DNA of 64,000 nt from an uncultured Bacteroidota bacterium (lineage in GTDB: Bacteria; Bacteroidota; Bacteroidia; Chitinophagales; Chitinophagaceae): the NCBI GenBank assembly GCA_903906365.1, contig CAIVKC010000056.1:1-64000 (forward strand). The letters are read 5' to 3'. Below the pieces are notes generated by a model that was given only the letters and a program-made list of their open reading frames with translations, was not told the origin of the DNA and searched no databases. Positions 25,210 through 63,987 of this stretch are shown piece by piece (the stretch's first letter is position 1; each line of letters opens with the position of its first letter). The translations under genes were made by a program, and so were the position numbers.

Positions 25210-25217
25210 TATCTTTG
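25210..25217 (+). promoter_or_regulatory. Predicted -7 element for the Cox1-like mini-protein
   Basis: TATCTTTG is an exact TAnnTTTG match ending only 4 bp before the ATG at 25222, which would place the transcription start at or next to the start codon, giving a leaderless message. A -33 TTG is not visible. Confidence 0.35.
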
Positions 25218-25221
25218 ACTC

Positions 25222-25716
25222 ATGACAGCATTCAAGGAGCGGCCTTACCGCCTTTTATTTTGGGCGGCCCTGCTGGTTTTTGCCCTGGGCCTCCTAGATG
25301 CAAATACCTCGCCCTATATCCGGCTGCAAAGCCTGTATTTTCCTGTTTCAAGCGCGCTACTCTACCACCTCCTGTCCCTGGGGCTGGCTTTAGCCTGGCT
25401 GCTGTACCGGCTGACGGAGCGGTTTTTATTTTCCAGGTATTTGACCTGGATCCATGTCACGGTGACCCTTGGGAGTTTGCTCGCGCTATATTGGGGGTGG
25501 CTGTACCTGAACGCAGCGCCCTTGGCCGGGGCCCCCAGACGCTACCTGGATTATCACTCCTGCGGCTTATGCAATGGCATCCGTTTTATGACCGGACCCC
25601 TTAGGGCCTGCGCGCTGCTATTGATCTATTCCCAGCTGCTCTATCCCATCCATTTGCTTACCGGGATATTTTCTGCGGCCAGGTCCCATAAAAGTAGCCT
25701 CCGCCAACCAGGGTGA
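25222..25716 (+). CDS. Small membrane protein resembling the C-terminal part of cytochrome oxidase subunit I, without metal ligands
   Basis: A 164-residue protein with four hydrophobic helices. It resembles the last helices of A-type oxidase subunit I. Compared with the coxA at 62167 in this window it keeps LYF (38-40), IHxxVTL (77-83, IHFWVTL in CoxA) and LAGxPRRYLDY (101-111, near identical to CoxA 493-503), and the distance from LYF to RRYLDY is the same, 76 residues counted from two before LYF. The haem ligands of CoxA helix X (H436, H438) are replaced by SSALLY-type residues, so it cannot bind the oxidase metals there. A CGLC pair (C114, C117) follows the motif. Function unknown. Confidence 0.7.
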   Translation: MTAFKERPYRLLFWAALLVFALGLLDANTSPYIRLQSLYFPVSSALLYHLLSLGLALAWLLYRLTERFLFSRYLTWIHVTVTLGSLLALYWGWLYLNAAPLAGAPRRYLDYHSCGLCNGIRFMTGPLRACALLLIYSQLLYPIHLLTGIFSAARSHKSSLRQPG

Positions 25717-25948: not shown

Positions 25949-28900
25949 TTAGACCAGGAGCATATATTCTTTGAGCACCGCTTCAATTTCCTCCCTTTTA
26001 AAGGGCTTGGAGATATAGTTGTTCATACCGGCATCCAGGCATTTTTCCCGGTCCCCCTTCATGGCGTCTGCCGTGAGGGCAATGATGGGTATCTGGCTGT
26101 GGGGCTCGGGCAACTGGCGCATCAGCCGGGTGGTGGTATAGCCATCGATCTCCGGCATGTTGACATCCATAAAGATCATCACGGGTTCGTAATGCGGCAG
26201 GGCTTCCAGGGCCTCCTTGCCATTATGCATCTGGATGATCTCAAAGCCCATCCGGCGGAGCACTTCGGAGATCAGCAGCATGTTGATCGGATCGTCATCC
26301 ACGACCATGATGCTGGCTGCCTGGGTAATTTTTTCTATGACCGGCAGGGAAGGATGAAGGGCGTCGCTTTGCATGTTCTTTTCAAACAGGGACAGCAGGG
26401 TAGCGCTCAGTTCATGGGTCTTCACCGGCTTGGACAGAAATTTTTGAATGCCGGCTTTGTCGGCTTCGTACTGGTACATGTTCTTTTCCAGGGAGGACAG
26501 CATCAGGATGGAAGGCGGCGTTTTTTCCCTGGTAATATTTTTCATTTCCCGCACAAAGGTGATCCCGTCGATGCCGGGCATATGGTGGTCGGTGATGACC
26601 AGGTCAAAGGGTTGTTTTTGTTTCATGGCTTCCCTGATTTTCATCAGCGCCGAAGTGCCGTCGGCAAAGGCCGTGCAGCTGATTCCCCAGAACTGGAAGA
26701 TCTCCTGCAGCAGTCCCCGGCTGGTGGCGTTGTCATCCACCACCATTACTTTTTTCACCAGCGGCTTGGACGTTCTGCGCACTTCTTCCTGTTCGTTGGC
26801 CACTTCCAGCACCAAGTGGAAGGTAAAAGTGCTGCCGTTGCCCGGATCGCTTTCCACGGTCAGGTGGCAGCCCATCAGTTCTGCCAGGCTGCGGGAGATG
26901 GTAAGACCCAGCCCCGTTCCGCCGTATTTGCGGGTGGTGGACGTATCGGCCTGCGTGAAGCTCTCAAAGATCTTCTGCAGCTTTTCCCGGGAAATGCCAA
27001 TGCCGGTATCGGCGACCAGTATATCCAGGTTCATGTATTTGCGGTCGTCTTTGAGGTAGATATCACCCGCCTTGTTGATGGAAATGAATATTTCACCTTC
27101 CTGGGTGAATTTGATCGCATTGCCCAGCAGGTTCACAAGCACCTGCTTGATGCGCACCGGGTCCCCCAGGAACTGGGAAGGAAGCTGCTGGTCCACGCGG
27201 AAAAGCATTTCCAGGTTCTTTTCATAGGCTTTCACCGTCAGGATGTCAATGGTGTCTTCCACCAGTTCATCGAGCTTGAAGATGACGTGGTCGATATGGA
27301 GTTTGCCGGCTTCTATCTTGGAGAAATCCAATATGTCGTTTATGATGTCCAGCAGGCCATAAGCCGATTTTTTAACGTTTTGCAGGTAATCGCGCTGCGT
27401 TTTCTGCAGGTCGGTGGTCAGCACCAGGTCCGTAAAGCCGATGATGCCGTTCATGGGTGTGCGCAGTTCATGGCTCATATTGGCCATAAATTCGCTTTTG
27501 GCTTTGCTGGCCGATTCGGCGACTTCCTTGGCCTGTATCAGTTCCACTTCAATCTGCTTTCTTTCGATGGCAGCCGACAGGGAAGAGGCAAAGGACCGCA
27601 GGATGGAAAATTCAGCTTCGGTCCATTCGCGGTGCTTTTTGAACTCATCAAATCCCACAAATCCCCAGAACTCATTTTTTACAAATATCGGCACCGCCGC
27701 CGAAGAGAGCAGGGAAGTCCGTTCATAGATTTCGATCAGCTGGGCATCTTCTTCGGTATCCCGGTAGCTGATGAAGGGCTGGTTGGCCTGCAGGGGCTCG
27801 ATGATTTTGCGGATGCTGCTGAAGGGCAGGTTGGTGATGTCCGCGCTATTGAGACGAATGTCCCGGGGGTCTTCGGTCCATTCGTGGGTCTCGCTGGTAT
27901 ACCACTGCAGGTCGGCAGGGTTCTGGTAATTGGTAAACATATAGACCCTGTTGACCATCGCCTTGCTGCCCAGGATGGCCAGCGACTGGTTGATGGCCTG
28001 GTCCAGGTTGGTATTGATCAGCAGGGAATGGGTCGCTCCGGCAACGGCATGGAGGAGCTGGTCTTTTTTCTTCAGTTTTTCCTGTGCATTCTTCTGGTCG
28101 TTGATATTGCGGGAGGTACAGATCAGTTTGATGACCTCGTTGTCATCGATGATGGGTTTGACAATACTTTCCAGCCAGATGTAGGATCCGTCCTTTTTGG
28201 TGATCCGGTACCGCAGGATCAGGGTTTCACTTTCGGACAGCGAGGTCCTGCTCTCCGCCGAAGGGGTGAACTTATAGCGGTCATCGGGATGCACATACTG
28301 CAGGATCGGCCTTCCGATGATATCATCCACCTCATAGCCCAGCACACTGGTGACGGAAGGGGAGAGATACCACATCGTGCCGTCGGCTGCATGGACACTG
28401 ATGATGTCCTCTGAGTTCTCGGCCAGCAGCCTGAACTTCTGTTCGCTGTTCAGCAGGGCGTTCTCGGACTCCTTTTGGGCGGTGACATCCTGGGCGATCC
28501 CGAAACTGCAGCTTTCATTGATCACCTTTCCTTTGATGAAAATATAACGCATCCAACCGTGGTTGGTGATCACCCGGCAGGAAAAGGACGTTTCGTATTC
28601 GCGGTTATGCCTGCTTTCAATGGCCTTTGCAAACTCATCGGAAACGGTCTCGACGTCTTCAGGCACGATGTAGCGGTTCAGAAACTCTTTGACATGGATG
28701 ATGTCCGAGGAATCATCAATGGCCAGCAGGGCCTTGAACTCCCGGCTGAGCATCAGCTCCCTGGAATCAAAATCCAGCCGCCAGGAACCCATCTTGGCAT
28801 AGGTCATGGCATAGGAAAGCGTATCGATGGCCTCTTCTTTGATTTGTTCGGACTGTACCTTATCCGTTACGTTCAGGCCGATTCCCTGGATTTCTTTGAC

Positions 28901-29899
28901 ATAGCCATAATCATCGGTCAGGGCGATGAATTCCCATTCGGTCCACAGGAAGTCCCGGGTGGTGCCAATGGGTTTTTTGATCAGTATCTTGGAGATCCTG
29001 CCCGGGTTCTTCCAGCAGTCGTCGGCCACCTGCTGGCATCTAAGCATGTCTTTGGGAAAGATCGTCTCGTAAAAGAAGCGGTTGCGCAGTTCCTCCTCGG
29101 TATGGAGGAAGGTGTTGAGAAAAGCCGGGTTGGCATAGGTAAAATTCCCCACCCGGTTGATGCGCACCACATAATTGGTCTGGGAATGCAGGATCGAAGT
29201 CAGGTATTTTTTCTCCTGCAGCAGCTCGTTTCTGGCCTTCTGCAGTTCCTTGTAGTTTATTTCCCCCCTTTTGAAGGCGGGTTCCAATACCAGGATGATG
29301 AGCAATATGATGGCTACGATGAGGGAGACCAGTTTGCTGGCATCGATGGTGGAGGCCTGGCTGTTTTTTTCATTGACCACCACGGTATAGCGTTTGGTGA
29401 TCTCCCGCATGAGGGGCAGGTATTTTTGCTCGTTGCTCAGCATTTCCCTTAGGTAAAGGCTGCGGTTGATCTTGAGCAGGCCGGTATCGGACTGCGCCAT
29501 TTCCTTTCCGGTGGCCAGGATCCCCTTGTAGTAGATGGAGGCCGTGGAAAACAGCAATTTGATGCTGAATATGGTCTGGGGAACCGGCAGCTGCATTTTT
29601 TCGATATTGTGCTGGAGCAGCTCCTCCTGGTTCTGGAAACTGACCAGGGTGGCGGCCAGGCTGTCCTGCAGGGCGGCTATCTGGGATTCAGGATAGATAT
29701 CACTGGATAGCAGGGCCGCATCCTTGGCAATGACCTGGCTCAGCGTCTGCTGACGTCCGGAAATGCTTTTAGCCTCGGTAAAACGGTCGTTTTGCGTGGA
29801 ATTGATGTGCAGAAGATAATACCCGAAAAAATTGAACAGCAGGACCACCACAAATAAAATGGCCGAAATGCGGATTAGCTTTCGAAAGGGACTCTTCAT
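25949..29899 (-). CDS. Hybrid sensor histidine kinase with PilJ-like sensor, PAS, GAF and two receiver domains
   Basis: A 1316-residue two-component protein anchored in the inner membrane. After helix 1 (about 10-30), a periplasmic part starts with [19 protein letters not shown], resembling the PilJ/NarX nitrate-type sensor, and ends at helix 2 (about 190-212). Inside are PAS domains (three seen, about 230-340, 370-480 and 490-610), a GAF-like domain (about 640-770) and the kinase core with H-box SHELRTP (H810) and an ATP site ([10 protein letters not shown]). Two receivers follow with phosphoacceptors D1104 (ITDHHMPG) and D1245 (FMDVNMPE). No Hpt domain is present, so phosphate must pass to a separate Hpt protein or the receivers act as regulators. 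No response regulator gene adjoins it. Confidence 0.93.
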
Positions 29900-53691: not shown

Positions 53692-56600
53692 ATGAGCGAT
53701 AAAAAATACTGGCAGACATTCGGAGAGCATAGTAACAGCGAGGCTTTTCAGGAAGCAGCAGCCAATGAATTCCGCGAAGACCTGCCGGTGGAAGGTCTGG
53801 ATTCCACGGGTCTGCTCGACGCCAAGACCCCCCGCAGGGATTTCCTGAAATACCTGGGTTTTTCCACCGCTGCCGCTGCACTGGCCGCCAGTTGCGAGAT
53901 ACCCGTTAAAAAGGTGATCCCCTACGTCAACAAGCCCGAAAATACCATCCCCGGGGTGGCTGATTACTACGCCACCACCTTCCAGTCCGGAGGGGACCTG
54001 GTCTCCGTAGTGGCCAAGGTCCGGGACGGAAGGCCCATCAAGCTGGAGGGCAATGAACTTTCTTCCATTACCAAAGGAGGTACCTCTGCCAGGGTGCAGG
54101 CATCCGTACTGGATTTATACGACACCGCCCGCCTGCGGCATCCAAAGCAGTCCGACGGCAATTCCTTCCAGGAAGTCACTTCCCTGGAAGCCTTTGACCA
54201 GCTGGCTGCCACAGCCCTGGGTTCCCTGGGCGGAGCGCCGCTGGTGATCCTCACTGGCACCATCACCTCCCCTACCACCAAAGAAATCATCAGCCAGTTC
54301 CTGGCCAAATACCCGGGCAGCCGCCATGTGCAGTACGATGCAGATTCCTATAGCGGCATGCTGCTGGCCAACGAAGCGGCCTATGGCAAAAAAGCCATTC
54401 CTTCCTACCAGTTCGACAAAGCCAAAGTCATTGTAAGCCTGGGTGCCGATTTTCTGGGTACCTGGCTTTCTCCCATAGAATTCGCCCGCCAGTATGCGGC
54501 TGGCCGCCGGGTCACCGACAAAAACGCCGAAATGAGCCGGCACTACCAGTTTGAAAGCCTGCTGTCGGTAACGGGTGGCAATGCGGACAAAAGATTTACA
54601 CTCCGTCCTTCAGAGACCGGGCCCCTGGCCCTGGCCCTGCTGGCCGAACTGGGCGGCCCGGTGAGCGCCCCCGCCCTGGATGGCCGCCTGAAATCCGCCG
54701 TGCAGCTGGCTGCCAAGGACCTATCTGCCGCCAAAGGCAGCGCCCTGGTGGTCTGCGGAAGCAATAACCCCCATGTGCAGCTCATCGTCAACGCCATCAA
54801 CGAAGCCATTGGAGCCAACGGCACCACCATCAACTGGGCTGCGCCCGTGCTCTGGCGCCAGGGACTGGATGCGGAAATGAGCAGCCTGGTAGCCGATATG
54901 GATGGCGGCAAGGTAGGCGCCCTGCTGGTGTACGGAGCAAATCCCGCCTATGATTATTACGACGCGGACAAATTCAGGGCCGCCATCAAAAAAGTAAAGA
55001 CCACCATTTCCTTCAACGACCGGCTGGATGAGACCACCGAGTTGTGCAAATACATTTTACCGGCGCCCCATTTCCTGGAAAGCTGGGGAGATGCCGAACC
55101 AAAGACCGGCTATTTCTCCTTCATGCAGCCCACCATCGCCCCGCTGTTCAAGACCAGGTCCTTTGAGGACTCCCTGCTCAAATGGAGCGGAGCCACCGAC
55201 ACCTACGAAGCCTATTTCAAAGCCTACTGGACTGCCAAACTCGGCGGTATCGACGGCTACGAAAAAGCCCTGCAGGACGGTGTGGTTGAACCGGCCGCCC
55301 CCTCCACCGGAGGAGCGCCCTTCAGCAGCGCGAAAGTATCGGAGGCAGCAGCAGCGATCGGGAGCATGAAAAAAGGCGGAGCCTATGAACTGGCCCTTTA
55401 CCAGAAGGTCTCCATGGGAACCGGCAAGCAGGCCAACAACCCCTGGCTGCTGGAACTGCCTGACCCCATCACCAAAGCCACCTGGGATAACTATGCAGTG
55501 GTCTCCCCCAAATATGCCAGGGACAACTGGCATATCGACCTGGGCGACCGCCGGCAGGCCGACAAATTCGAAGTGCATCCCGACAGGCAGGTCGTTTCCG
55601 TGAAAGTGGGCGGCAAAGAAATTACCCTTCCGGCCCTGGTGGTTCCCGGTGTACACGATGAGGTGATCGGTATTGCCGTGGGTTACGGCCGCCAGAGTGC
55701 CAACAAAGACAATACCGCCGATTATATCGGAAAAGCAGTAGTGGGCGCAGGCAGGAATGCCTTCCCGCTGGCCACTTTCAACGGCCTGACCGTGGAATGG
55801 TCTGCCCCGGAAGCCACCTGCGAAACAACCAAAGAATTCTACCAGGTCGCACAGACCCAGACACATAGCAATTACGAAGGCCGCACTGAAGCGGTGAAGG
55901 AACTCACGCTGGAGGATTTCAAAAAATCACCCGATGAGATTCTCAACGAAAGGGAAGAGGAACTAAAGCCCTATGGCGGACTGAAGAGTTTCACCGAGCA
56001 GGGTACCCTCTACGGTGTCTATGACAAGCCCGGCATCCACTGGGGCATGTCGGTGGACATGAACTCCTGCGTGGGCTGCGGTGCCTGCGTGGTAGCCTGC
56101 CACGCCGAAAACAACGTTTCTGTAGTGGGTAAAAAAGAAGTGCTCCGTTACCACGACATGCACTGGCTGCGCATCGACCGTTATTTCAGCGGCAACCTCC
56201 AGGAGGCCGACAGCATCCAGACTGTTTTCCAGCCCATGCTTTGCCAGCATTGCGATAATGCGCCCTGCGAGAATGTGTGCCCGGTATCTGCCACCAACCA
56301 TTCCTCAGAAGGACTCAACCAGATGGCCTATAACCGCTGCATCGGCACCAGGTACTGCGCCAACAACTGTCCGTTCAAAGTGCGTCGTTTTAACTGGGCC
56401 GATTATACCGGGGCCGATTCATTCCCCGATAACCAGAACGGTATTATCTCCGATGCCACCATGATGATGAATGATGAACTGCCCCGTATGGTGCTCAACC
56501 CGGATGTAACCGTACGCTCCAGGGGGGTGATGGAAAAATGCTCCTTCTGTGTGCAGCGCCTGCAGGAAGGAAAACTCAAAGCCAAAAAAGCAGACCGCCC

Positions 56601-56856
56601 TTTAAAGGATATGGAAGATGTGAGAACAGCCTGCCAGCAGGCCTGCCCGACGGAAGCCATTGTTTTTGGCAACGCCAATGACAAAGAAAGCCGCATCCGC
56701 CAGACCAGGCTGGAAAACGAAGGCCGCCTGTTCTATGCGCTGGAAGAACTCCATGTATTGCCCAATGTCAATTACCTGGCAAAAATCCGCAATACAGATG
56801 TCATCCAGGGAAAGGCCGGGGAGAAAAAGGAAGAAACGGCTGAAAAGAAAGCCTGA
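53692..56856 (+). CDS. actB: ACIII subunit ActB: molybdopterin-like and iron-sulphur protein
   Basis: A 1054-residue periplasm-facing subunit of Alternative Complex III. The N terminus has a twin-arginine-like signal (RRDFLKYLGFS at about 48-58, a Tat variant used by this family) and an extension before it. The first part (about 90-780) resembles molybdopterin oxidoreductases but lacks the metal ligands, and the last part carries iron-sulphur Cys clusters (C793 in NSCVGCGACVVAC, C851 in CQHCDNAPCENVC, C883 in CIGTRYCANNC, C950 in CSFC and C981 in CQQACP). It bridges menaquinol oxidation and haem transfer. Confidence 0.95.
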   Translation: MSDKKYWQTFGEHSNSEAFQEAAANEFREDLPVEGLDSTGLLDAKTPRRDFLKYLGFSTAAAALAASCEIPVKKVIPYVNKPENTIPGVADYYATTFQSGGDLVSVVAKVRDGRPIKLEGNELSSITKGGTSARVQASVLDLYDTARLRHPKQSDGNSFQEVTSLEAFDQLAATALGSLGGAPLVILTGTITSPTTKEIISQFLAKYPGSRHVQYDADSYSGMLLANEAAYGKKAIPSYQFDKAKVIVSLGADFLGTWLSPIEFARQYAAGRRVTDKNAEMSRHYQFESLLSVTGGNADKRFTLRPSETGPLALALLAELGGPVSAPALDGRLKSAVQLAAKDLSAAKGSALVVCGSNNPHVQLIVNAINEAIGANGTTINWAAPVLWRQGLDAEMSSLVADMDGGKVGALLVYGANPAYDYYDADKFRAAIKKVKTTISFNDRLDETTELCKYILPAPHFLESWGDAEPKTGYFSFMQPTIAPLFKTRSFEDSLLKWSGATDTYEAYFKAYWTAKLGGIDGYEKALQDGVVEPAAPSTGGAPFSSAKVSEAAAAIGSMKKGGAYELALYQKVSMGTGKQANNPWLLELPDPITKATWDNYAVVSPKYARDNWHIDLGDRRQADKFEVHPDRQVVSVKVGGKEITLPALVVPGVHDEVIGIAVGYGRQSANKDNTADYIGKAVVGAGRNAFPLATFNGLTVEWSAPEATCETTKEFYQVAQTQTHSNYEGRTEAVKELTLEDFKKSPDEILNEREEELKPYGGLKSFTEQGTLYGVYDKPGIHWGMSVDMNSCVGCGACVVACHAENNVSVVGKKEVLRYHDMHWLRIDRYFSGNLQEADSIQTVFQPMLCQHCDNAPCENVCPVSATNHSSEGLNQMAYNRCIGTRYCANNCPFKVRRFNWADYTGADSFPDNQNGIISDATMMMNDELPRMVLNPDVTVRSRGVMEKCSFCVQRLQEGKLKAKKADRPLKDMEDVRTACQQACPTEAIVFGNANDKESRIRQTRLENEGRLFYALEELHVLPNVNYLAKIRNTDVIQGKAGEKKEETAEKKA

Positions 56857-56965
56857 GGCCGGGCTTATAGGGACAGAAATCTGAATATAAACAACTAGTT
56901 AGAGGGTTCCAATACATTTTTAAAAGCATGCGGCCCCCGGGCCGACGCTAAAAGCTCAAAGAATT

Positions 56966-58414
56966 ATGGCATTATTAAAATACGAATCACAAGTCAGGCC
57001 GCCATTGGTGAATGGTACGAAGGATTACCACCAGGTTACGGAAGACATTGTACGCCCCATTGAGGCCAGGCCGGGAAAACTCTGGTGGATCGGCTTTCTG
57101 ACAGCGGTGGGACTGCTTTGCTTCGGCATGTATTCCGTCTACCGGGAGGTCACCTACGGGATTGGCCAGTGGAACCTCAACAAGACCATCGGCTGGGGCT
57201 GGGACATCACCAATTTCGTGTGGTGGGTGGGTATCGGTCACGCGGGTACCCTGATTTCCGCGATCCTGCTGCTGTTCAGGCAGGGATGGAGGACGGGGGT
57301 GAACCGTGCGGCAGAGGCGATGACCATTTTTGCGGTCATGTGCGCCGGCCAGTTCCCCATCTGGCATATGGGTCGCGTCTGGATGGCGTTTTTCGTATTG
57401 CCTTATCCCAATACGCGCGGCCCGCTCTGGACCAATTTCAACTCCCCCCTGCTCTGGGACGTATTTGCGATATCGACTTATTTTACCGTTTCCCTGCTTT
57501 TCTGGTACTGCGGACTGCTGCCTGACCTGGCTTCCGTGCGTGACCGCGCCAAACTGAAATGGCGTAAATTCTTCTACGGGCTGACTTCTTTTGGCTGGAC
57601 CGGTTCCACCAAACACTGGCAGCGCCACGAGGCCCTGTCGCTGGTGCTGGCAGGCCTGAGTACCCCGCTGGTACTCTCCGTGCACACCATCGTATCCTTT
57701 GACTTTGCCACTTCGGTCATACCCGGATGGCATACCACCATCTTCCCTCCCTATTTCGTGGCGGGAGCGATCTTCTCCGGTTTTGCGATGGTGCAGAGCC
57801 TGCTGATCATTACCCGCAAGGTGCTGCACCTGGAAGATTATATTACCCTGGAACATATCGAAGTGATGAATAAGGTGATCGTACTGACCGGCTCCATCGT
57901 GGGGGTGGCCTACCTGACCGAACTGTTCATCGCCTGGTACGGACAGAATAAATTCGAGAACTGGGCCTTCATGCAAAACAGGGTGAACCTGTTCAGCCCG
58001 CTGGGCTGGAGCTATTACCTGATGATGGGCTGTAACGTGCTTTCCCCGCAGATCTTCTGGTTCCGTAAAATGCGCAGGAACCTGACGGTGACCTTTTTCA
58101 TGTCTGTGATCGTCAACATCGGAATGTGGTTTGAGCGTTTTGTGATCATCGTGACCTCCATTTACCGCGATTACATACCCAGCAGCTGGAGCACCTATTA
58201 TACCCCTTCGGTTTGGGAAATCGGGTTTTACCTGGGGACATTCGGGCTGTTTTTCACCTGCTATTTCCTGTTTTCAAAATTCTTCCCGGTCATCGCACTG
58301 GCGGAGATCAAACATATCCTGAAAAAATCAGGGGAGAACTTTAAGGAAAAGATGGGGGATGCCGAGGCCGAACCCGTCGAGGAATTTGCGCACGAAATGG
58401 CTCACGCCCATTAA
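56966..58414 (+). CDS. actC: ACIII subunit ActC, NrfD-like membrane protein
   Basis: A 482-residue multi-spanning protein of the NrfD/PsrC family with about ten membrane helices. It holds the menaquinol-oxidising site at the periplasmic side, with its related partner ActF. Visible: the first helix after KLWWIGFLTAVGLLC (about 32-46), WWVGIGHAGTLISAILLLF (about 75-93), a loop with TSVIPGWHTTIFPPYF (about 249-264) and a tail with acidic residues. 109 bp separate it from ActB. The start ATG is 56966. NrfD proteins act in quinone pools of many respiratory complexes. Confidence 0.95.
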   Translation: MALLKYESQVRPPLVNGTKDYHQVTEDIVRPIEARPGKLWWIGFLTAVGLLCFGMYSVYREVTYGIGQWNLNKTIGWGWDITNFVWWVGIGHAGTLISAILLLFRQGWRTGVNRAAEAMTIFAVMCAGQFPIWHMGRVWMAFFVLPYPNTRGPLWTNFNSPLLWDVFAISTYFTVSLLFWYCGLLPDLASVRDRAKLKWRKFFYGLTSFGWTGSTKHWQRHEALSLVLAGLSTPLVLSVHTIVSFDFATSVIPGWHTTIFPPYFVAGAIFSGFAMVQSLLIITRKVLHLEDYITLEHIEVMNKVIVLTGSIVGVAYLTELFIAWYGQNKFENWAFMQNRVNLFSPLGWSYYLMMGCNVLSPQIFWFRKMRRNLTVTFFMSVIVNIGMWFERFVIIVTSIYRDYIPSSWSTYYTPSVWEIGFYLGTFGLFFTCYFLFSKFFPVIALAEIKHILKKSGENFKEKMGDAEAEPVEEFAHEMAHAH

Positions 58415-58457
58415 TGAACCCGTATTGAAGGAAATAAACACTGGAATCTGATCTATT

Positions 58458-59048
58458 ATGGCTATAAAAAAATTTGTTGTTGGTGCTTTCACGGATGAAG
58501 CGGTCCTTTTTCCCGCAGTCAAAAAAGTGCGCCAGGCGGGCTACAAGATCCACGATGTGTATACCCCCATGGCCATTCATGGCCTGGACAAGGCGATGGG
58601 CCTGAGGGAGACCAGCCTGCATACCGCGGGTTTCATCTACGGGATCACCGGCACGACCACGGCCCTTTCGGGCATCGGCTGGATATTTACCAGCGACTGG
58701 CCGTTGAACTTTGGCGGTAAACCCCATTTTTCCCTGCCGGCCTGGATACCCATCACCTTTGAACTGACGGTGCTGTTTGCAGCCGTAGGGATGGTATTGA
58801 CTTTTTGCTATCTCTGCCAGATGGCCCCCTTTGTCAAGAAACACCATTTCAGCCTGCGGGCCACCGATGACCATTTTGTCATGGTGATCGAATGCACACC
58901 GAGGACCAATGTAGCCGAGGCGCAGGCCTTTTTGGGCAGCATCGGCGCGGTGGACATCAACGTCCAGGACGCAGAAACCGGCTGGTGGCTGGGGCGCTAT
59001 GACAAAGACACCAAACCTTTTGAGATGAACAAAACAGCGATCGTATAA
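58458..59048 (+). CDS. actD: ACIII subunit ActD, DUF3341 protein
   Basis: A 196-residue accessory subunit. The N-terminal soluble domain (KFVVGAFTDEAVLFPAVKKV, about 4-23) resembles a ferredoxin-like regulatory fold (DUF3341). Two membrane helices follow, at about 55-76 and 95-117, and the C-terminal half returns to a soluble regulatory-like domain (ECTPRTNVAEAQAFLGSIGA). It assists ACIII assembly or stability. It is 43 bp after ActC and 25 bp before ActE, so it is co-transcribed. Confidence 0.93.
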   Translation: MAIKKFVVGAFTDEAVLFPAVKKVRQAGYKIHDVYTPMAIHGLDKAMGLRETSLHTAGFIYGITGTTTALSGIGWIFTSDWPLNFGGKPHFSLPAWIPITFELTVLFAAVGMVLTFCYLCQMAPFVKKHHFSLRATDDHFVMVIECTPRTNVAEAQAFLGSIGAVDINVQDAETGWWLGRYDKDTKPFEMNKTAIV

Positions 59049-59073
59049 ACTGACAAGCATTCAAGACATTCAG

Positions 59074-59727
59074 ATGAAAAAAATAACCATCATATCACTG
59101 GTTGCATTCACAGGGATCCTTATCGCGAGCTGCAGTGATGTCAGGCGCAAACCAGGCAGGATCTATATGCCGGATATGGCCTACAGCCGCGCCTACGAGA
59201 CGTACTCGGTTACCGAGGAAGACAGGCAGGCCCTTGAAAAAGACGGAATCCATTTCAGCAATACGCCGGTTGCCGGTACCATCAAGCGCGGGGAACTGTT
59301 TCCCTTCCTGCTGGCCAAAGACAAGGACGGTGATACCACCAACTATGCCGCCTCCAAAAAAGTAGTCAACCCGCTGCCGGCCCTGACCGAAGATCAGGCC
59401 GTGGAAGCAGAAAGGCTGTTCCTGGTTAACTGTGCCATCTGTCACGGCCCCAAACTGGACGGCAATGGCCCCCTGTATAAAGGCGGCGATGGTCCTTATC
59501 CGGCCAAACCGGCCCAGCTGGTGGGTGACGCCAAGTATGAGGCCATGCCCGACGGGCAGATGTACTATTCTGTGCTCTACGGAAAAAACAAAATGGGCAG
59601 CTACGCTTCCCAGCTGGATTCCAGGCAGCGCTGGATGGTGATCCATTATATTAAAAGCAAGCAGGCTGCTGCCAAGGGAACGGCTGTGGCCGCCCCTGCC
59701 GCTGATTCAGCAGGCATGAAGAAATAA
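59074..59727 (+). CDS. actE: ACIII subunit ActE, monohaem cytochrome c lipoprotein
   Basis: A 217-residue lipoprotein. The signal ends in LIASC (Cys about 20). The haem site is C120-AIC-H124 (NCAICHGPK), and the Met of KNKMGSYASQL (about 175) is the likely second ligand. It takes electrons from the ACIII core or gives them to the oxidase side. With ActA it brings the complex to seven predicted c haems. C-terminal residues are Ala/Lys-rich (AAAKGTAVAAPAADS), probably disordered. Position between ActD and ActF matches the standard order. Confidence 0.94.
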   Translation: MKKITIISLVAFTGILIASCSDVRRKPGRIYMPDMAYSRAYETYSVTEEDRQALEKDGIHFSNTPVAGTIKRGELFPFLLAKDKDGDTTNYAASKKVVNPLPALTEDQAVEAERLFLVNCAICHGPKLDGNGPLYKGGDGPYPAKPAQLVGDAKYEAMPDGQMYYSVLYGKNKMGSYASQLDSRQRWMVIHYIKSKQAAAKGTAVAAPAADSAGMKK

Positions 59728-59767
59728 GAGGAGCAAACGAATTACCGAATACATTAAACTTTTGTGA

Positions 59768-60985
59768 ATGTCACTGAAAGAACATTTTGAAATCCCGGCG
59801 AAGTACAAACTGTGGTCCATGATCCTGATGGGTGTCGGGGCGCTTTCGCTCATCCTGGGTTATGTACTCTATGGCAACCAGGACGGCGGGGTACGTTTCT
59901 GGTCAGCCCTGCTGCATAACAGTGTATATTTTCTGCTGGTGGTCAACGCAACCATGTTTTTCTACTGCGCGACCACGCTGGCCCTGGGCGGCTGGCAGAT
60001 ATCGTTCCGCCGGGTCACGGAAGCCATTTCCGCTTCGGTCATACCCATCGGGGCCATCACCTTTGTCATTTTGCTTTGCCTTGTAATGGGCCATAAGACC
60101 ATCATATATGAATGGCTGGACAAGGACGTGGTCAGCAAGGACGCTGTACTCAACGGCAAAAAGGGATTCCTCAACCCGTCCTTCTTTATCATCTGGACCA
60201 CACTGACCATCGGTCTGTGGATCCTGCTGGGGCTTAAGATGCGCCAGATCTCCAGGAGCATCGACGATGCGCCGCTGAGTGTGGAGGAAGGCAAGGCCTT
60301 TACCTGGAAAAATACCGTCTGGTCATCTGTGTATATCGTCTGGTTCGCCCTGACGGTGGCCTCCACGGTACCCTGGCTCTGGCTGATGAGCATCAATGCA
60401 CACTGGTTTTCCACCATGTACAGCTGGTACACTTTCGCCAGCACCTTTGTGGCCGGCATTGCGCTGATGACCCTGTTTGTCATCTATCTCAAGAACCTGG
60501 GCTACCTGGAATTCACCAATGAGGAGCACCTGCACGATCTGGGCAAATTTCAGTTTGCGTTCTCCATTTTCTGGACTTACCTGTGGTTCTCCCAGTTCAT
60601 GCTGATCTGGTATGCCAATATTTCGGAGGAGACCATTTATTTCAAAAACCGTTTCGAAGGACCCTACAGCGGAATATTTTATTTAAACCTGGTCATCAAT
60701 TTCCTGGCTCCTTTGTTAATCTATATGACGCGTTCTTCCAAACGCAACTACGCCACGGTGACCTTCATGTCGGTGGCCCTGCTGTTTGGACATTGGCTGG
60801 ATGTATACCAGATGGTTTTCGGATCCACCATCAAAGGCGAGGTTATGCTGGGTCTTTTTGATTTCGGGATTGCAGCCGGTTTTGTCGGCCTGATCATGTG
60901 GCAGACCGCAAGGGTCCTGGCCAAGTACCCGCTGATCATCAAGAATCATCCTTTCCTCAAAGAAAGCATCATACATCATACATAG
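59768..60985 (+). CDS. actF: ACIII subunit ActF, NrfD-like membrane protein
   Basis: A 405-residue membrane protein with about ten helices, a shorter relative of ActC. It is the second NrfD-like subunit of ACIII; whether it binds quinol is less certain than for ActC. Visible: SMILMGVGALSLILGYVLYG (about 17-36), the AIFWTYLWFSQFMLIWYANI-type region (about 275-292), and a closing helix ending at TARVLAKYPLI. It is followed by coxB after 64 bp, so the act unit leads into the oxidase genes. Confidence 0.94.
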   Translation: MSLKEHFEIPAKYKLWSMILMGVGALSLILGYVLYGNQDGGVRFWSALLHNSVYFLLVVNATMFFYCATTLALGGWQISFRRVTEAISASVIPIGAITFVILLCLVMGHKTIIYEWLDKDVVSKDAVLNGKKGFLNPSFFIIWTTLTIGLWILLGLKMRQISRSIDDAPLSVEEGKAFTWKNTVWSSVYIVWFALTVASTVPWLWLMSINAHWFSTMYSWYTFASTFVAGIALMTLFVIYLKNLGYLEFTNEEHLHDLGKFQFAFSIFWTYLWFSQFMLIWYANISEETIYFKNRFEGPYSGIFYLNLVINFLAPLLIYMTRSSKRNYATVTFMSVALLFGHWLDVYQMVFGSTIKGEVMLGLFDFGIAAGFVGLIMWQTARVLAKYPLIIKNHPFLKESIIHHT

Positions 60986-61049
60986 AAAAAGGAATTAATA
61001 TAATTGGTTCAGTTTATACAACTATCAGTCTAAAATTTCAAAATCTACC

Positions 61050-62114
61050 ATGTCAACGACTTTTCTGATATTAATTCTGTTACTCGGCTTCCTGATCACT
61101 TTCCAGATAGCGAAAGCCAGTGAGTACGTGGCTGTGCTGAAAGGAGAAAAGAAAGCCTTTGAGAGCAATAACCGGATCAATGGCTTTTTGATGATGGTCT
61201 TCCTGGTGGCAGGCCTGATCGGCGTATACTGGTGCAACGAGCTCTTCAAGGGAAAGGTCCTGGGCGAAGCGGCTTCCCAGCACGGTCAGCAGATTGACAA
61301 CATGCTGCATATTACCTTTATCATTACCGGCATCGTGTTTTTGATCACCCAGATCCTGCTGTTCTGGTTTGCCTACAAATACCAGTATTCCGAAACCAGG
61401 AAAAGCTATTATTTCCCCCACGACAACCGTCTGGAAATGATCTGGACCGTAATCCCGGCCATTGCATTGACCGTGCTGGTGGGTTTTGGCCTGTTCTACT
61501 GGTTTCGTATCACCGGGGATGCCCCCAAGGATGCCTTGAAGGTGGAAGTGACCGGAAAACAGTTTGGCTGGATTTTCCGCTATGAGGGCAAAGACGGGGT
61601 ATTTGGCAAAAAATACTACCAGAATATCAGCGATGCCAAGAACAATTCCCTGGGCTTGCTCTGGGATGACCCGGCTACCCATGATGACATCGTGGTTTCC
61701 AATGAAATGTACCTGATTGTCAATAAACCCGTTAAACTGATCATCAATTCCCGCGACGTCATCCATGATGTGGGCCTGGTGCATTTCCGCATGAAGATGG
61801 ATGCCGTGCCCGGCACGCCTACCACCATGTGGTTCACCCCCCTGTTTACCACAGAGGAAATGAAGAAAAAAACGAATAATCCTAATTTTGAATATGAGAT
61901 TTCCTGTGATCAGATGTGTGGCAAAGGTCATTACGGCATGAAGGGCGTGATCAAGGTGGTTTCCGAAGACGAATTCATCCTGTGGCATGCCAAGCAGAAG
62001 TCCAATTATGCCCAGGTATTTGAAAACGGCGAGGCGCCCGTCAAAAAGGACAGCACCTTAAAGGCCGTCATCCCGGCTCCGGCGCCTGCAGCGCTGATCG
62101 CCGCCAGGAATTAA
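61050..62114 (+). CDS. coxB: Cytochrome c oxidase subunit II
   Basis: A 354-residue subunit that carries the CuA centre receiving electrons from c haems. An N-terminal hydrophobic helix (about 3-23), then two more helices (about 48-66 and 87-108), are followed by the cupredoxin domain. The CuA ligands are H239 (DVIHDVG), C286 and C290 (SCDQMCG), H294 and M297 (GHYGMKG). No haem c domain is attached, unlike caa3-type subunits. The C terminus is Ala/Pro-rich. It follows actF by 64 bp, and coxA follows by 52 bp. Confidence 0.95.
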   Translation: MSTTFLILILLLGFLITFQIAKASEYVAVLKGEKKAFESNNRINGFLMMVFLVAGLIGVYWCNELFKGKVLGEAASQHGQQIDNMLHITFIITGIVFLITQILLFWFAYKYQYSETRKSYYFPHDNRLEMIWTVIPAIALTVLVGFGLFYWFRITGDAPKDALKVEVTGKQFGWIFRYEGKDGVFGKKYYQNISDAKNNSLGLLWDDPATHDDIVVSNEMYLIVNKPVKLIINSRDVIHDVGLVHFRMKMDAVPGTPTTMWFTPLFTTEEMKKKTNNPNFEYEISCDQMCGKGHYGMKGVIKVVSEDEFILWHAKQKSNYAQVFENGEAPVKKDSTLKAVIPAPAPAALIAARN

Positions 62115-62166
62115 TCAGTTTTGGCAACATTGCGTACCCAGCAGTCATTGATATAAAAAATTTCTC

Positions 62167-63987
62167 ATGAGCAACGAATTAACAGTACATGGACATCCCG
62201 GTGTGGCAGCTCCTGATATTCACTACGAAGATCACGAAGTGCATCACCACAAGGAGACTTTTATTACCAAATATGTTTTCAGCCAGGACCATAAAATGAT
62301 ATCCAAACAGTTTATCATTACCGGGATGGTCTGGGCCATTCTGGGTGGTCTGATGTCGGTCTTATTCCGCCTTCAGCTCGGATACCCCGATACCGCCTTC
62401 CCCTTCCTGGAAGACCTGCTTGGAAAATGGGCAAAGGGCGGAAAGATCCAGCCTGAGTTCTACTATGCCCTGGTGACCATGCATGGCACCGTACTGGTGT
62501 TTTTCGTACTGACCGGGGGACTCAGCGGCACTTTCGCCAATTTCCTGATTCCCCTGCAGATCGGAGCCCGGGATATGGCTTCGCCATTCCTGAATATGCT
62601 GTCCTACTGGTTTTTCTGGCTGGCAAGCGTGGTAATGGTATCCTCTTTGTTTGTGGAGACCGGCCCTGCCAGCGGCGGTTGGACATCCTACCCTCCCTTA
62701 AGCGCCCTGGGTGACGCCTCGCAGGGTTCCAAAGCCGGCATGGACCTGTGGATCATTTCCATGGCCCTGTTCGTGGTATCCTCCCTGCTGGGTGGCCTGA
62801 ACTATATTTCCACCATCCTTAACATGCGTACCAAAGGAATGAGCATGACCCGGATGCCGCTCACCATCTGGGCGATCCTGTTTACGGCCATCCTGGGGGT
62901 TTTGTCCTTCCCGGTACTGCTGAGCGGATTCATCCTGCTGCTGTTTGACCGCCATGCCGGGACCAGCTTCTACCTCTCTGACATTTTCATCGCTTCCACC
63001 CAGAAGGCCCTGCCCAATGAAGGCGGCAGTGCCATCCTGTTCCAGCACCTGTTCTGGTTCCTGGGTCATCCGGAAGTCTATATCATCATATTACCTGCGA
63101 TGGGCCTGGTTTCAGAGGTCATGGCCGTCAACACCAGAAAGCCCATTTTCGGCTATATGGCGATGGTCGGTTCCCTGTTTGCCATTACCATCCTGGCCTT
63201 CCTGGTATGGGCGCACCATATGTTCGTCACGGGGCTGAACCCGTTTTTGGGTTCCGTCTTCGTACTGCTGACCCTGCTCATCGCCATTCCTTCGGCCATC
63301 AAGGTATTCAACTGGATTACCACGCTCTGGAAGGGAAATATCCGCTTTACCCCGGCCATGCTCTTTGCCATCGGTTTTGTGAGCCTGTTTATCTCCGGCG
63401 GACTTACCGGGATCTTCCTGGGTAATTCCACCCTGGATATCCACCTCCATGACACCTATTTTGTGATTGCCCACTTCCATATCGTCATGGGCGTATCGGC
63501 CTTCTTCGGCATGTTCTGCGGGGTATACCACTGGTTCCCCAAAATGTACGGCCGGTACATGAACAATACCATGGCCTATATCCATTTCTGGGTTACCCTG
63601 GTGGGCGCCTACCTGATATTCTGGCCCATGCACTATGAGGGCCTGGCCGGTATGCCGCGCCGCTACCTGGATTACAGCGGATGGGCTTCCTTCAACCAGT
63701 TCGGGGAGCTGAACCGGTTTATCTCCACGGTGGCCATGGTGGTCTTTGCCGTGCAGCTGATGTTTGTATTCAATTTCTTCTATTCCATATTCAAAGGCCG
63801 CCGGGTGACATCACAGAACCCATGGGGCTCCACGACACTCGAATGGACGGCGCCCATCCGGCCCGGACATGGCAACTGGCCCGGTGAAATTCCCGAAGTG
63901 CACCGCTGGGCTTATGATTATGGCAAAGACGGAAGGGATTTCATCATGCAGACCGAGCCGATCGGCGATCATGAAAGCAAGCATTGA
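62167..63987 (+). CDS. coxA: Cytochrome c oxidase subunit I
   Basis: A 606-residue catalytic subunit with about twelve membrane helices that reduces oxygen and pumps protons. Haem and copper ligands are present: H106 (TMHGT, haem a), H301 and Y305 of GHPEVY (CuB His with its cross-linked Tyr), H350 and H351 (AHHMF, CuB), and H436 and H438 (AHFHIV, haem a3 and a). A soluble His-rich head occupies about 1-45 and a charged tail follows the last helix. Its last helices provide the template to which the 25222 mini-protein is compared. Stop at 63987, 13 bp before the edge; subunits III and IV probably follow. Confidence 0.97.
   Translation: MSNELTVHGHPGVAAPDIHYEDHEVHHHKETFITKYVFSQDHKMISKQFIITGMVWAILGGLMSVLFRLQLGYPDTAFPFLEDLLGKWAKGGKIQPEFYYALVTMHGTVLVFFVLTGGLSGTFANFLIPLQIGARDMASPFLNMLSYWFFWLASVVMVSSLFVETGPASGGWTSYPPLSALGDASQGSKAGMDLWIISMALFVVSSLLGGLNYISTILNMRTKGMSMTRMPLTIWAILFTAILGVLSFPVLLSGFILLLFDRHAGTSFYLSDIFIASTQKALPNEGGSAILFQHLFWFLGHPEVYIIILPAMGLVSEVMAVNTRKPIFGYMAMVGSLFAITILAFLVWAHHMFVTGLNPFLGSVFVLLTLLIAIPSAIKVFNWITTLWKGNIRFTPAMLFAIGFVSLFISGGLTGIFLGNSTLDIHLHDTYFVIAHFHIVMGVSAFFGMFCGVYHWFPKMYGRYMNNTMAYIHFWVTLVGAYLIFWPMHYEGLAGMPRRYLDYSGWASFNQFGELNRFISTVAMVVFAVQLMFVFNFFYSIFKGRRVTSQNPWGSTTLEWTAPIRPGHGNWPGEIPEVHRWAYDYGKDGRDFIMQTEPIGDHESKH

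Follow-up and report, generated by a model that had tools for sequence, protein, structure and literature searches.

A small membrane protein family derived from the last four helices of cytochrome oxidase subunit I in Chitinophagaceae and related bacteria

The closest described relatives of the proteins treated here are the full-length subunits I of cytochrome oxidase, CoxA/CtaD (PF00115, TIGR02891). The elements D-x-x-x-HDTY and PRRY of CoxA face subunit II, on the Mg/CuA side and at the haem propionates; the HD pair belongs to the Mg site, and the PRRY loop carries the haem-propionate arginines. The second group for comparison are the bacterial oxidase assembly proteins, i.e. CtaG, Surf1, Sco, and PCuAC, which would share their job with the proteins described below if our guess of a role in assembly is right. 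We know of no CoxA fragment among them. A term search of one review of assembly proteins (PMC9145763) gave no hit for “truncated”, “Bacteroidetes”, “Chitinophag-”, or “small protein”. Here, we analyzed a gene in a DNA stretch of 64,000 nt (“the window”; contig CAIVKC010000056.1, positions 1 to 64,000) from an uncultured bacterium of the Chitinophagaceae. It is an ATG-started open frame of 164 codons on the plus strand, and we call its product and the relatives of this product mini-Cox1 proteins, or minis.

Compared with the CoxA of the same window (606 residues), the mini of 164 residues comprises homologues of helices IX-XII, with the same order of motifs and the same charge pattern. Helices I-VIII are missing, and so are the parts that they carry in CoxA, namely the CuB ligands, the haem a ligand of helix II, and the proton channels. 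The mini differs further by signature residues of its own and by shortened stretches. The minis constitute a stand-alone, CoxA-derived family of bacterial membrane proteins that is apparently undescribed. In searches of the open-access literature in PMC for truncated or unusual subunits I, there was no paper on such proteins among those listed, absence from open access not being absence in print. The derivation of the family from CoxA helices IX-XII is well supported, and it is almost certain that a CoxA origin is combined with a selected function.

In a BLASTP comparison, residues 23-154 of the window protein aligned with residues 415-546 of the window CoxA (E = 6e-8, 25% identity), and in a search of the whole genome CoxA was the sole other match (5.1e-5). 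With the window protein alone, Pfam did not list COX1 up to an E of 10 and returned three models of unrelated families, none of which reached its cut-off (best 0.015; CopD 0.23), NCBIfam returned a single model that is not an oxidase (0.16), and phmmer gave no match in the PDB. When a profile was built from the window protein and 24 further members, its matches in the PDB at E ≤ 10 were 32 different sequences, every one of them COX1 (best E 9.9e-8). Because the profile of relatives matches COX1 alone in the PDB, the similarity is beyond chance. At E ≤ 0.01, seven of the 25 single members match Pfam COX1 (PF00115) and eight match NCBIfam CtaD_CoxA; the window protein is homologous to COX1, yet lies outside the PF00115 profile.

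Foldseek with the predicted structure of the window protein listed no oxidase among the best 50 rows, the model being too weak for searching. The relative L090 was modelled better (predicted local distance difference test, pLDDT, of 78.1), and a second-look aligner ranked helices IX-XII of oxidase subunit I first. Plain Foldseek with the L090 model gave no match at E ≤ 0.001, and a COX1 chain was at rank 4 (E 0.57). The first-pass annotation of the window, made from the letters alone, had described a Cox1-like protein of 164 residues without haem ligands and regarded it as a possible evolved CoxA fragment. The frame is real, as is its relation to CoxA, and the profile search agrees with that description; the structural match that had been envisaged failed for the window protein itself, but was obtained with the relative by the second-look aligner. 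Homologues with the same motifs, also envisaged there, occur outside the window genome, and some are demonstrably under purifying selection.

Members of the family are mostly ~150-170 residues long and occur mainly in Chitinophagaceae. With the window protein as the query (E ≤ 1e-5), 15 of the 396 genomes of the order matched, 12 with short frames and three with full-length CoxA; one of the 12 short frames, in G275, is a six-helix form. For the class, three of 395 genomes matched, all with short frames. In the 176 genomes of the family, the 25-member profile revealed short frames of 147-323 aa; they are present in at least 21 of these genomes, in 23 places among the matches listed. These counts are lower bounds, and they do not include a frame of 348 aa in G868, which is probably a CoxA cut short. 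For the phylum, the profile found two short frames in 148 genomes at E ≤ 1e-18. Seven of the 33 genomes of the genus have short frames according to the profile search, with the window copy as the sole one at the level of minis (158 bits, against a profile that contains the window protein itself; others ≤75 bits). The best near-full-length identity of the window protein to another mini is 34%. Named carriers include Flavihumibacter fluminis and F. cheonanensis (Flavihumibacter belonging to the Chitinophagaceae), Sphingobacteriales bacterium 44-15, and the metagenome-assembled genome SZAS-81. Intact copies reside in single-contig genomes (e.g. G831, G282, G322, and G141), and therefore these copies are not artefacts of contig ends. 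No relative was found in a first scan of contigs with the window protein or in searches of plasmid, phage, and viral sequences.

Several candidates were rejected. A 450-aa match in G034 appears to be an unrelated membrane protein, and a search with the fragment L003 as the query was swamped by full-length CoxA. L003 and L076/L087 have no shortened X-XI loop and were left out of the 25-row family alignment, which also omits the near-identical L091/L092 and copies found later.

The 25 minis form a single clade (ultrafast bootstrap value 100) in a tree with 30 of the 82 CoxA segments found and six other truncated forms. The P-to-D distance in the helix IX stretch is 23-26 in all 25 minis vs. 28 in CoxA, i.e. 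2 to 5 residues shorter, and the Y-to-H distance in the X-XI loop is 39 in 24 minis and 38 in one, vs. 42 in CoxA. The window protein has the signature of the family, i.e. P8, L74-x-W76-x-H78, Q138, and G148, and it shares the shortening of the helix IX stretch and of the X-XI loop. Two short proteins of the window genus (L180:6878-7330 and L182:7070-7540) contain an HDT[YF] motif and have no histidine at the position of H78, and one of the two keeps both haem histidines. They may represent a second, very divergent branch.

To estimate what is conserved, 71 positions that are invariant (≥95%) in the 82 CoxA segments were used as a reference, and their retention was scored in the 25 minis. The mean retention is 0.25. 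The best-kept positions are H473 and Q530 (0.96), Y454 and N536 (0.84), and D429, T430, and T477 (0.80). Among the periplasmic positions, the values are 0.76 for D424 and Y431, 0.72 for Y500, 0.64 for H428, 0.56 for R498, and 0.48 for R499. The haem histidines H436 and H438 have values of 0.20 (5 of 25 members each): two members have both, six have one, and 17 have none, so that 17 minis differ from CoxA in having no haem a/a3 histidine in helix X. In the numbering of the window mini, H78 is kept in 24 of the 25 members and P8 in all, and the family has acquired residues of its own, i.e. G148 (25 of 25), W76 (24 of 25), and W59 (23 of 25). H78, Q138, and N144 make up a cluster at the inner side with the family-specific W59, W76, and G148. 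This inner-side cluster is thus the firmest constant of the family, HDTY is frequent, and the metal sites have for the most part been lost. The counts of K/R vs. D/E are 56:3 at the N-terminus, 61:4 in the X-XI loop, and 84:6 at the C-terminus, whereas the two remaining loops have 22:52 and 69:66. These charges flanking the helices fit the positive-inside rule and thus indicate an N-in/C-in topology.

Selection was estimated from dN/dS values (ratios of nonsynonymous to synonymous substitution rates) of 16 pairs, of which three had no usable dS and three near-identical ones had a dS of 0. Three copies from one genus that have no haem ligands (L136, L192, and L193) show values of 0.056-0.073 and are thus under strong purifying selection. 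The values are 0.19-0.21 for L089 vs. L090/L092. Five further pairs have values of 0.16-0.32, and in four of these the dS is >2, near saturation. There is no general need for iron ligands in the family. These results bear on the idea of a haem-binding or haem-delivery protein, in which members with HTH would bind haem, perhaps as a dimer, and ligand-less members would do so via other residues. The two members with both haem histidines, the six with one, and the presence of H78 in 24 of 25 would be compatible with this function. However, neither histidine is present in 17 members, three of which are the most constrained of the copies measured, the histidines are no better kept than the average CoxA-invariant position (0.20 vs. 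0.25), and the second haem a ligand, a residue of helix II, is absent. We therefore regard a haem function as improbable.

A functionless, decaying coxA fragment or a chance open frame is very improbable. None of the 33 searched genomes of the genus contains a close relative of the window copy, and other CoxA fragments exist in this genus, e.g. L003, as would be expected for decay. In contrast, the monophyly of the minis, the shared shortened stretches, the dN/dS values of relatives well below 1, and the intact frames in single-contig genomes such as the four named above speak against decay.

Truncated proteins of the CoxA type with the same terminal helices as the minis and apparently about two more helices (VII-VIII) are encoded by open frames of 220-266 aa (L179, L181, L087, L197, and L198). 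These half-CoxA proteins branch between CoxA and the minis, with a modest support of 64 for all truncated forms together. L179:6909-7634, from the window genus, has 241 residues, resembles the last part of CoxA (Pfam COX1 4.6e-37), and keeps the HH and HxH pairs (WAHHM, AHTH); it perhaps represents an early stage of the truncation series. L197 and L198, from two Flavihumibacter, have lost the HH and HxH pairs and have kept HDTY and PRRY, and their dN/dS is 0.257/0.808 = 0.32. Each of these two half-CoxA genes is preceded by a gene for a protein of ~115 residues (L197/L199 in G370, L198/L200 in G1037). The two preceding genes are similar to each other, and a Pfam search with the first 100 residues of one product gave no match. 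The surroundings are otherwise a variable set of small genes.

The gene neighbourhoods of 29 loci were compared, i.e. those of 27 minis and of L032 and L087. Where a neighbour family occurred at two or three loci, these loci were congeneric or the family appeared to be generic, and no recurring neighbour beyond these was seen in the 29 loci. In L186, what looks like a Sco-like gene is the third gene downstream of the mini; this was suggestive, but no second case was seen. At five loci (L080, L090, L091, L092, and L125) the mini is part of an array with palindromes of ~100-180 nt. AAC and GTT are the outer ends of 17 of the 25 long palindromes in these loci; complementary GTT...AAC ends around palindromes are a mark of integron gene cassettes. 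The ends are exactly complementary in 8 of the 13 intervals between neighbouring sites, compared with at most 6 in 2000 re-optimised permutations. For the cassette of the mini itself, they are exactly complementary in L090, L091, L092, and L125, and one of nine positions differs in L080, so that the minis of all five loci have the features of single-gene cassettes bounded by attC-like palindromes. A strict consensus scan for attC sites (≤160 nt) found none; it missed these cassettes because it limited the site length to 160 nt and demanded the full consensus. Matches to TIGR02249 (IntI) at E ≤ 1e-20 were obtained in 12 of 12 genomes, none of them over the cut-off, and 4 of 14 control genomes gave matches as well. 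Eight of the 12 genomes, i.e. all five with a cassette and three in which none was seen at the mini, have recombinase frames of 389-464 aa in which the match is split.

For F. fluminis vs. F. cheonanensis, the dS of the mini is 0, while that of coxA is 0.311, which indicates a recent transfer, based on one gene and one species pair. Integron-type cassette arrays around single small genes were observed in Chitinophagaceae (Flavihumibacter and relatives), and L192 contains 10 long palindromes vs. 0.2 in shuffles. No cassette-type repeats were found near the window copy, which looks like an ordinary chromosomal gene.

The scattered occurrence (in at least 21 of the 176 genomes searched in the family), the location on single-gene cassettes, with a recent transfer in one pair of Flavihumibacter species, and what look like small genes of no obvious function near several copies would also suit a decoy for resistance or immunity, i.e. 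a piece of CoxA surface that soaks up an oxidase-aimed toxin, phage protein, or inhibitor. We consider this quite unlikely: matches to PADLOC are weak (best E 0.013 and 0.04, each in one of 25 members), no toxin or defence partner was identified, and the closest trio is strongly constrained and not diversifying.

The explanation that we favour, with slightly less than even confidence, is a metal-free, CoxA-derived pseudo-subunit that acts by protein contact, our best guess for its target being the aa3 oxidase. For the family, it is shown that a coxA-type gene was reduced to its four terminal helices (IX-XII), that the N-in/C-in charge pattern was retained, that two stretches (helix IX and the X-XI loop) became shorter, and that most members lost the haem histidines by drift, while the testable copies remained under purifying selection. 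The mini would make protein-protein contacts in the inner membrane via the periplasmic D-x-x-x-HDTY and PRRY and via the inner-side cluster, and it would have no redox chemistry of its own. The occurrence as a single-gene cassette in five genomes shows that no co-transferred partner is needed, and the mini therefore probably acts on something already present in the host. The oxidase is the likeliest partner, because it is nearly universal in the hosts (a CoxA-like query matches 380 of the 396 genomes of the order) and because the periplasmic motif is on the side of subunit II. The mini might bind the aa3 oxidase or an assembly intermediate at the CoxB side and tune assembly or activity. We regard an action on the oxidase as possible, with clearly less than even confidence. 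It is somewhat doubtful that a bacterial lineage has made metal-free pseudo-subunits from the last four helices of CoxA, and in other branches from roughly its C-terminal half, which spread on single-gene integron cassettes as mobile accessories of complex IV and modulate or shield the aa3 oxidase.

Several observations weigh against a pseudo-subunit that contacts the oxidase. The CoxA-invariant glycines have retention values of 0-0.24 and are thus mostly lost, suggesting that the mini is probably not seated in CoxA's own place. The HD pair is complete in 16 of the 25 members and the RR pair in eight, so that the periplasmic patch is no family constant, and the window copy itself has Q36 and S37 instead of HD. 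No gene neighbour or fusion that ties the family to the oxidase was seen in the loci compared, and the roles given for the CoxA residues are general background and no result of this analysis. One of the 25 members matches Pfam Frag1/DRAM/Sfk1, an unrelated membrane family (4.2e-5). The AlphaFold model of the window protein, with four main predicted helices, has a low confidence (pLDDT 58.6), and purifying selection was measured in relatives, the window copy being without a close one. The main rival, which we regard as unlikely, is that the mini has acquired an activity of its own in the membrane that has nothing to do with the oxidase. Its four helices would repack, perhaps in a homo-oligomer resembling the four-helix trimers of MAPEG enzymes (LTC4 synthase, mPGES-1) and styrene oxide isomerase, and a lipid, quinone, or other hydrophobic ligand would be bound near H78/Q138. 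The better conservation of the inner-side cluster compared with the periplasmic motif argues for such a separate activity.

The features of the window gene are compiled in Table 1. Of 34 mini and half-CoxA genes, 8 are preceded at a distance of up to 110 nt by TAnnTTTG, the -7 consensus of Bacteroidota, while 1.76 are expected from letter shuffles; on the strength of this box, the window mini is perhaps transcribed from its own promoter. The motifs LYF, IHxxVTL, and LAGxPRRYLDY had been described in the first-pass annotation as kept in the order and spacing of CoxA. YF is indeed shared, but CoxA has TYF and not LYF. The order is kept, whereas the spacing is close and unequal: the X-XI distance is 3 residues shorter (Y to H 39 vs. 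42) and the XI-XII distance 3 longer (H78 to P105 27 vs. 24). The alignment confirmed the replacement of the haem ligands in the window copy (H436 by S44, H438 by L46); the wording that all metal ligands are lost is valid for this copy, but too broad for a family in which eight of 25 members have one or both haem histidines. The CGLC pair is present, but among the 25 members CxxC is confined to the window protein, and thus a role in copper or thiol handling is unsupported. No evidence was found for the suggested quinone handling, and a role in oxidase assembly is possible. An apparent Alternative complex III-like and cox operon, which includes the full-length coxA, occupies 53692-63987 of the window, and coxA is ~37 kb from the mini. 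A large hybrid sensor kinase-like gene (25949-29899, minus strand, 1316 aa) is convergent with the mini.

Table 1. Coordinates of the mini-Cox1 gene, its parts, and coxA in the window
Feature	Position	Strand	Description
mini-Cox1 gene	25222..25716	+	membrane protein of 164 residues, homologue of CoxA helices IX-XII
TAnnTTTG box	25210..25217	+	12 nt before ATG; possible own promoter, very short leader
helix IX counterpart	25240..25305	+	residues 7-28, with P8; low-confidence model
helix X counterpart	25336..25416	+	residues 39-65, with family-specific W59; low-confidence model
S44 and L46	25351..25359	+	positions of CoxA haem ligands H436 and H438
helix XI counterpart	25435..25515	+	residues 72-98, signature L74-T-W76-x-H78 at cytoplasmic start; low-confidence model
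P105-RRYLDY111	25534..25554	+	intact CoxA loop motif
C114-G-L-C117	25561..25572	+	window protein only, 1 of 25 members
helix XII counterpart	25555..25701	+	residues 112-160, Q138 and family-specific G148; low-confidence model
coxA	62167..63987	+	full-length parent type, 606 aa; residues 415-546 aligned by BLASTP

Because 8 of the 25 members match CtaD_CoxA at E ≤ 0.01, some minis are at risk of being misannotated as subunit I. If the minis bind the oxidase, they would be mobile regulators of respiration of a hitherto unseen class, and they would constitute a natural experiment that distinguishes the surfaces of CoxA needed for contact from those needed for chemistry. CoxA is a highly constrained protein, and C-terminal helices that have been freed from it, have lost the metal sites, and are kept by selection show that parts of this scaffold have uses beyond oxygen reduction.
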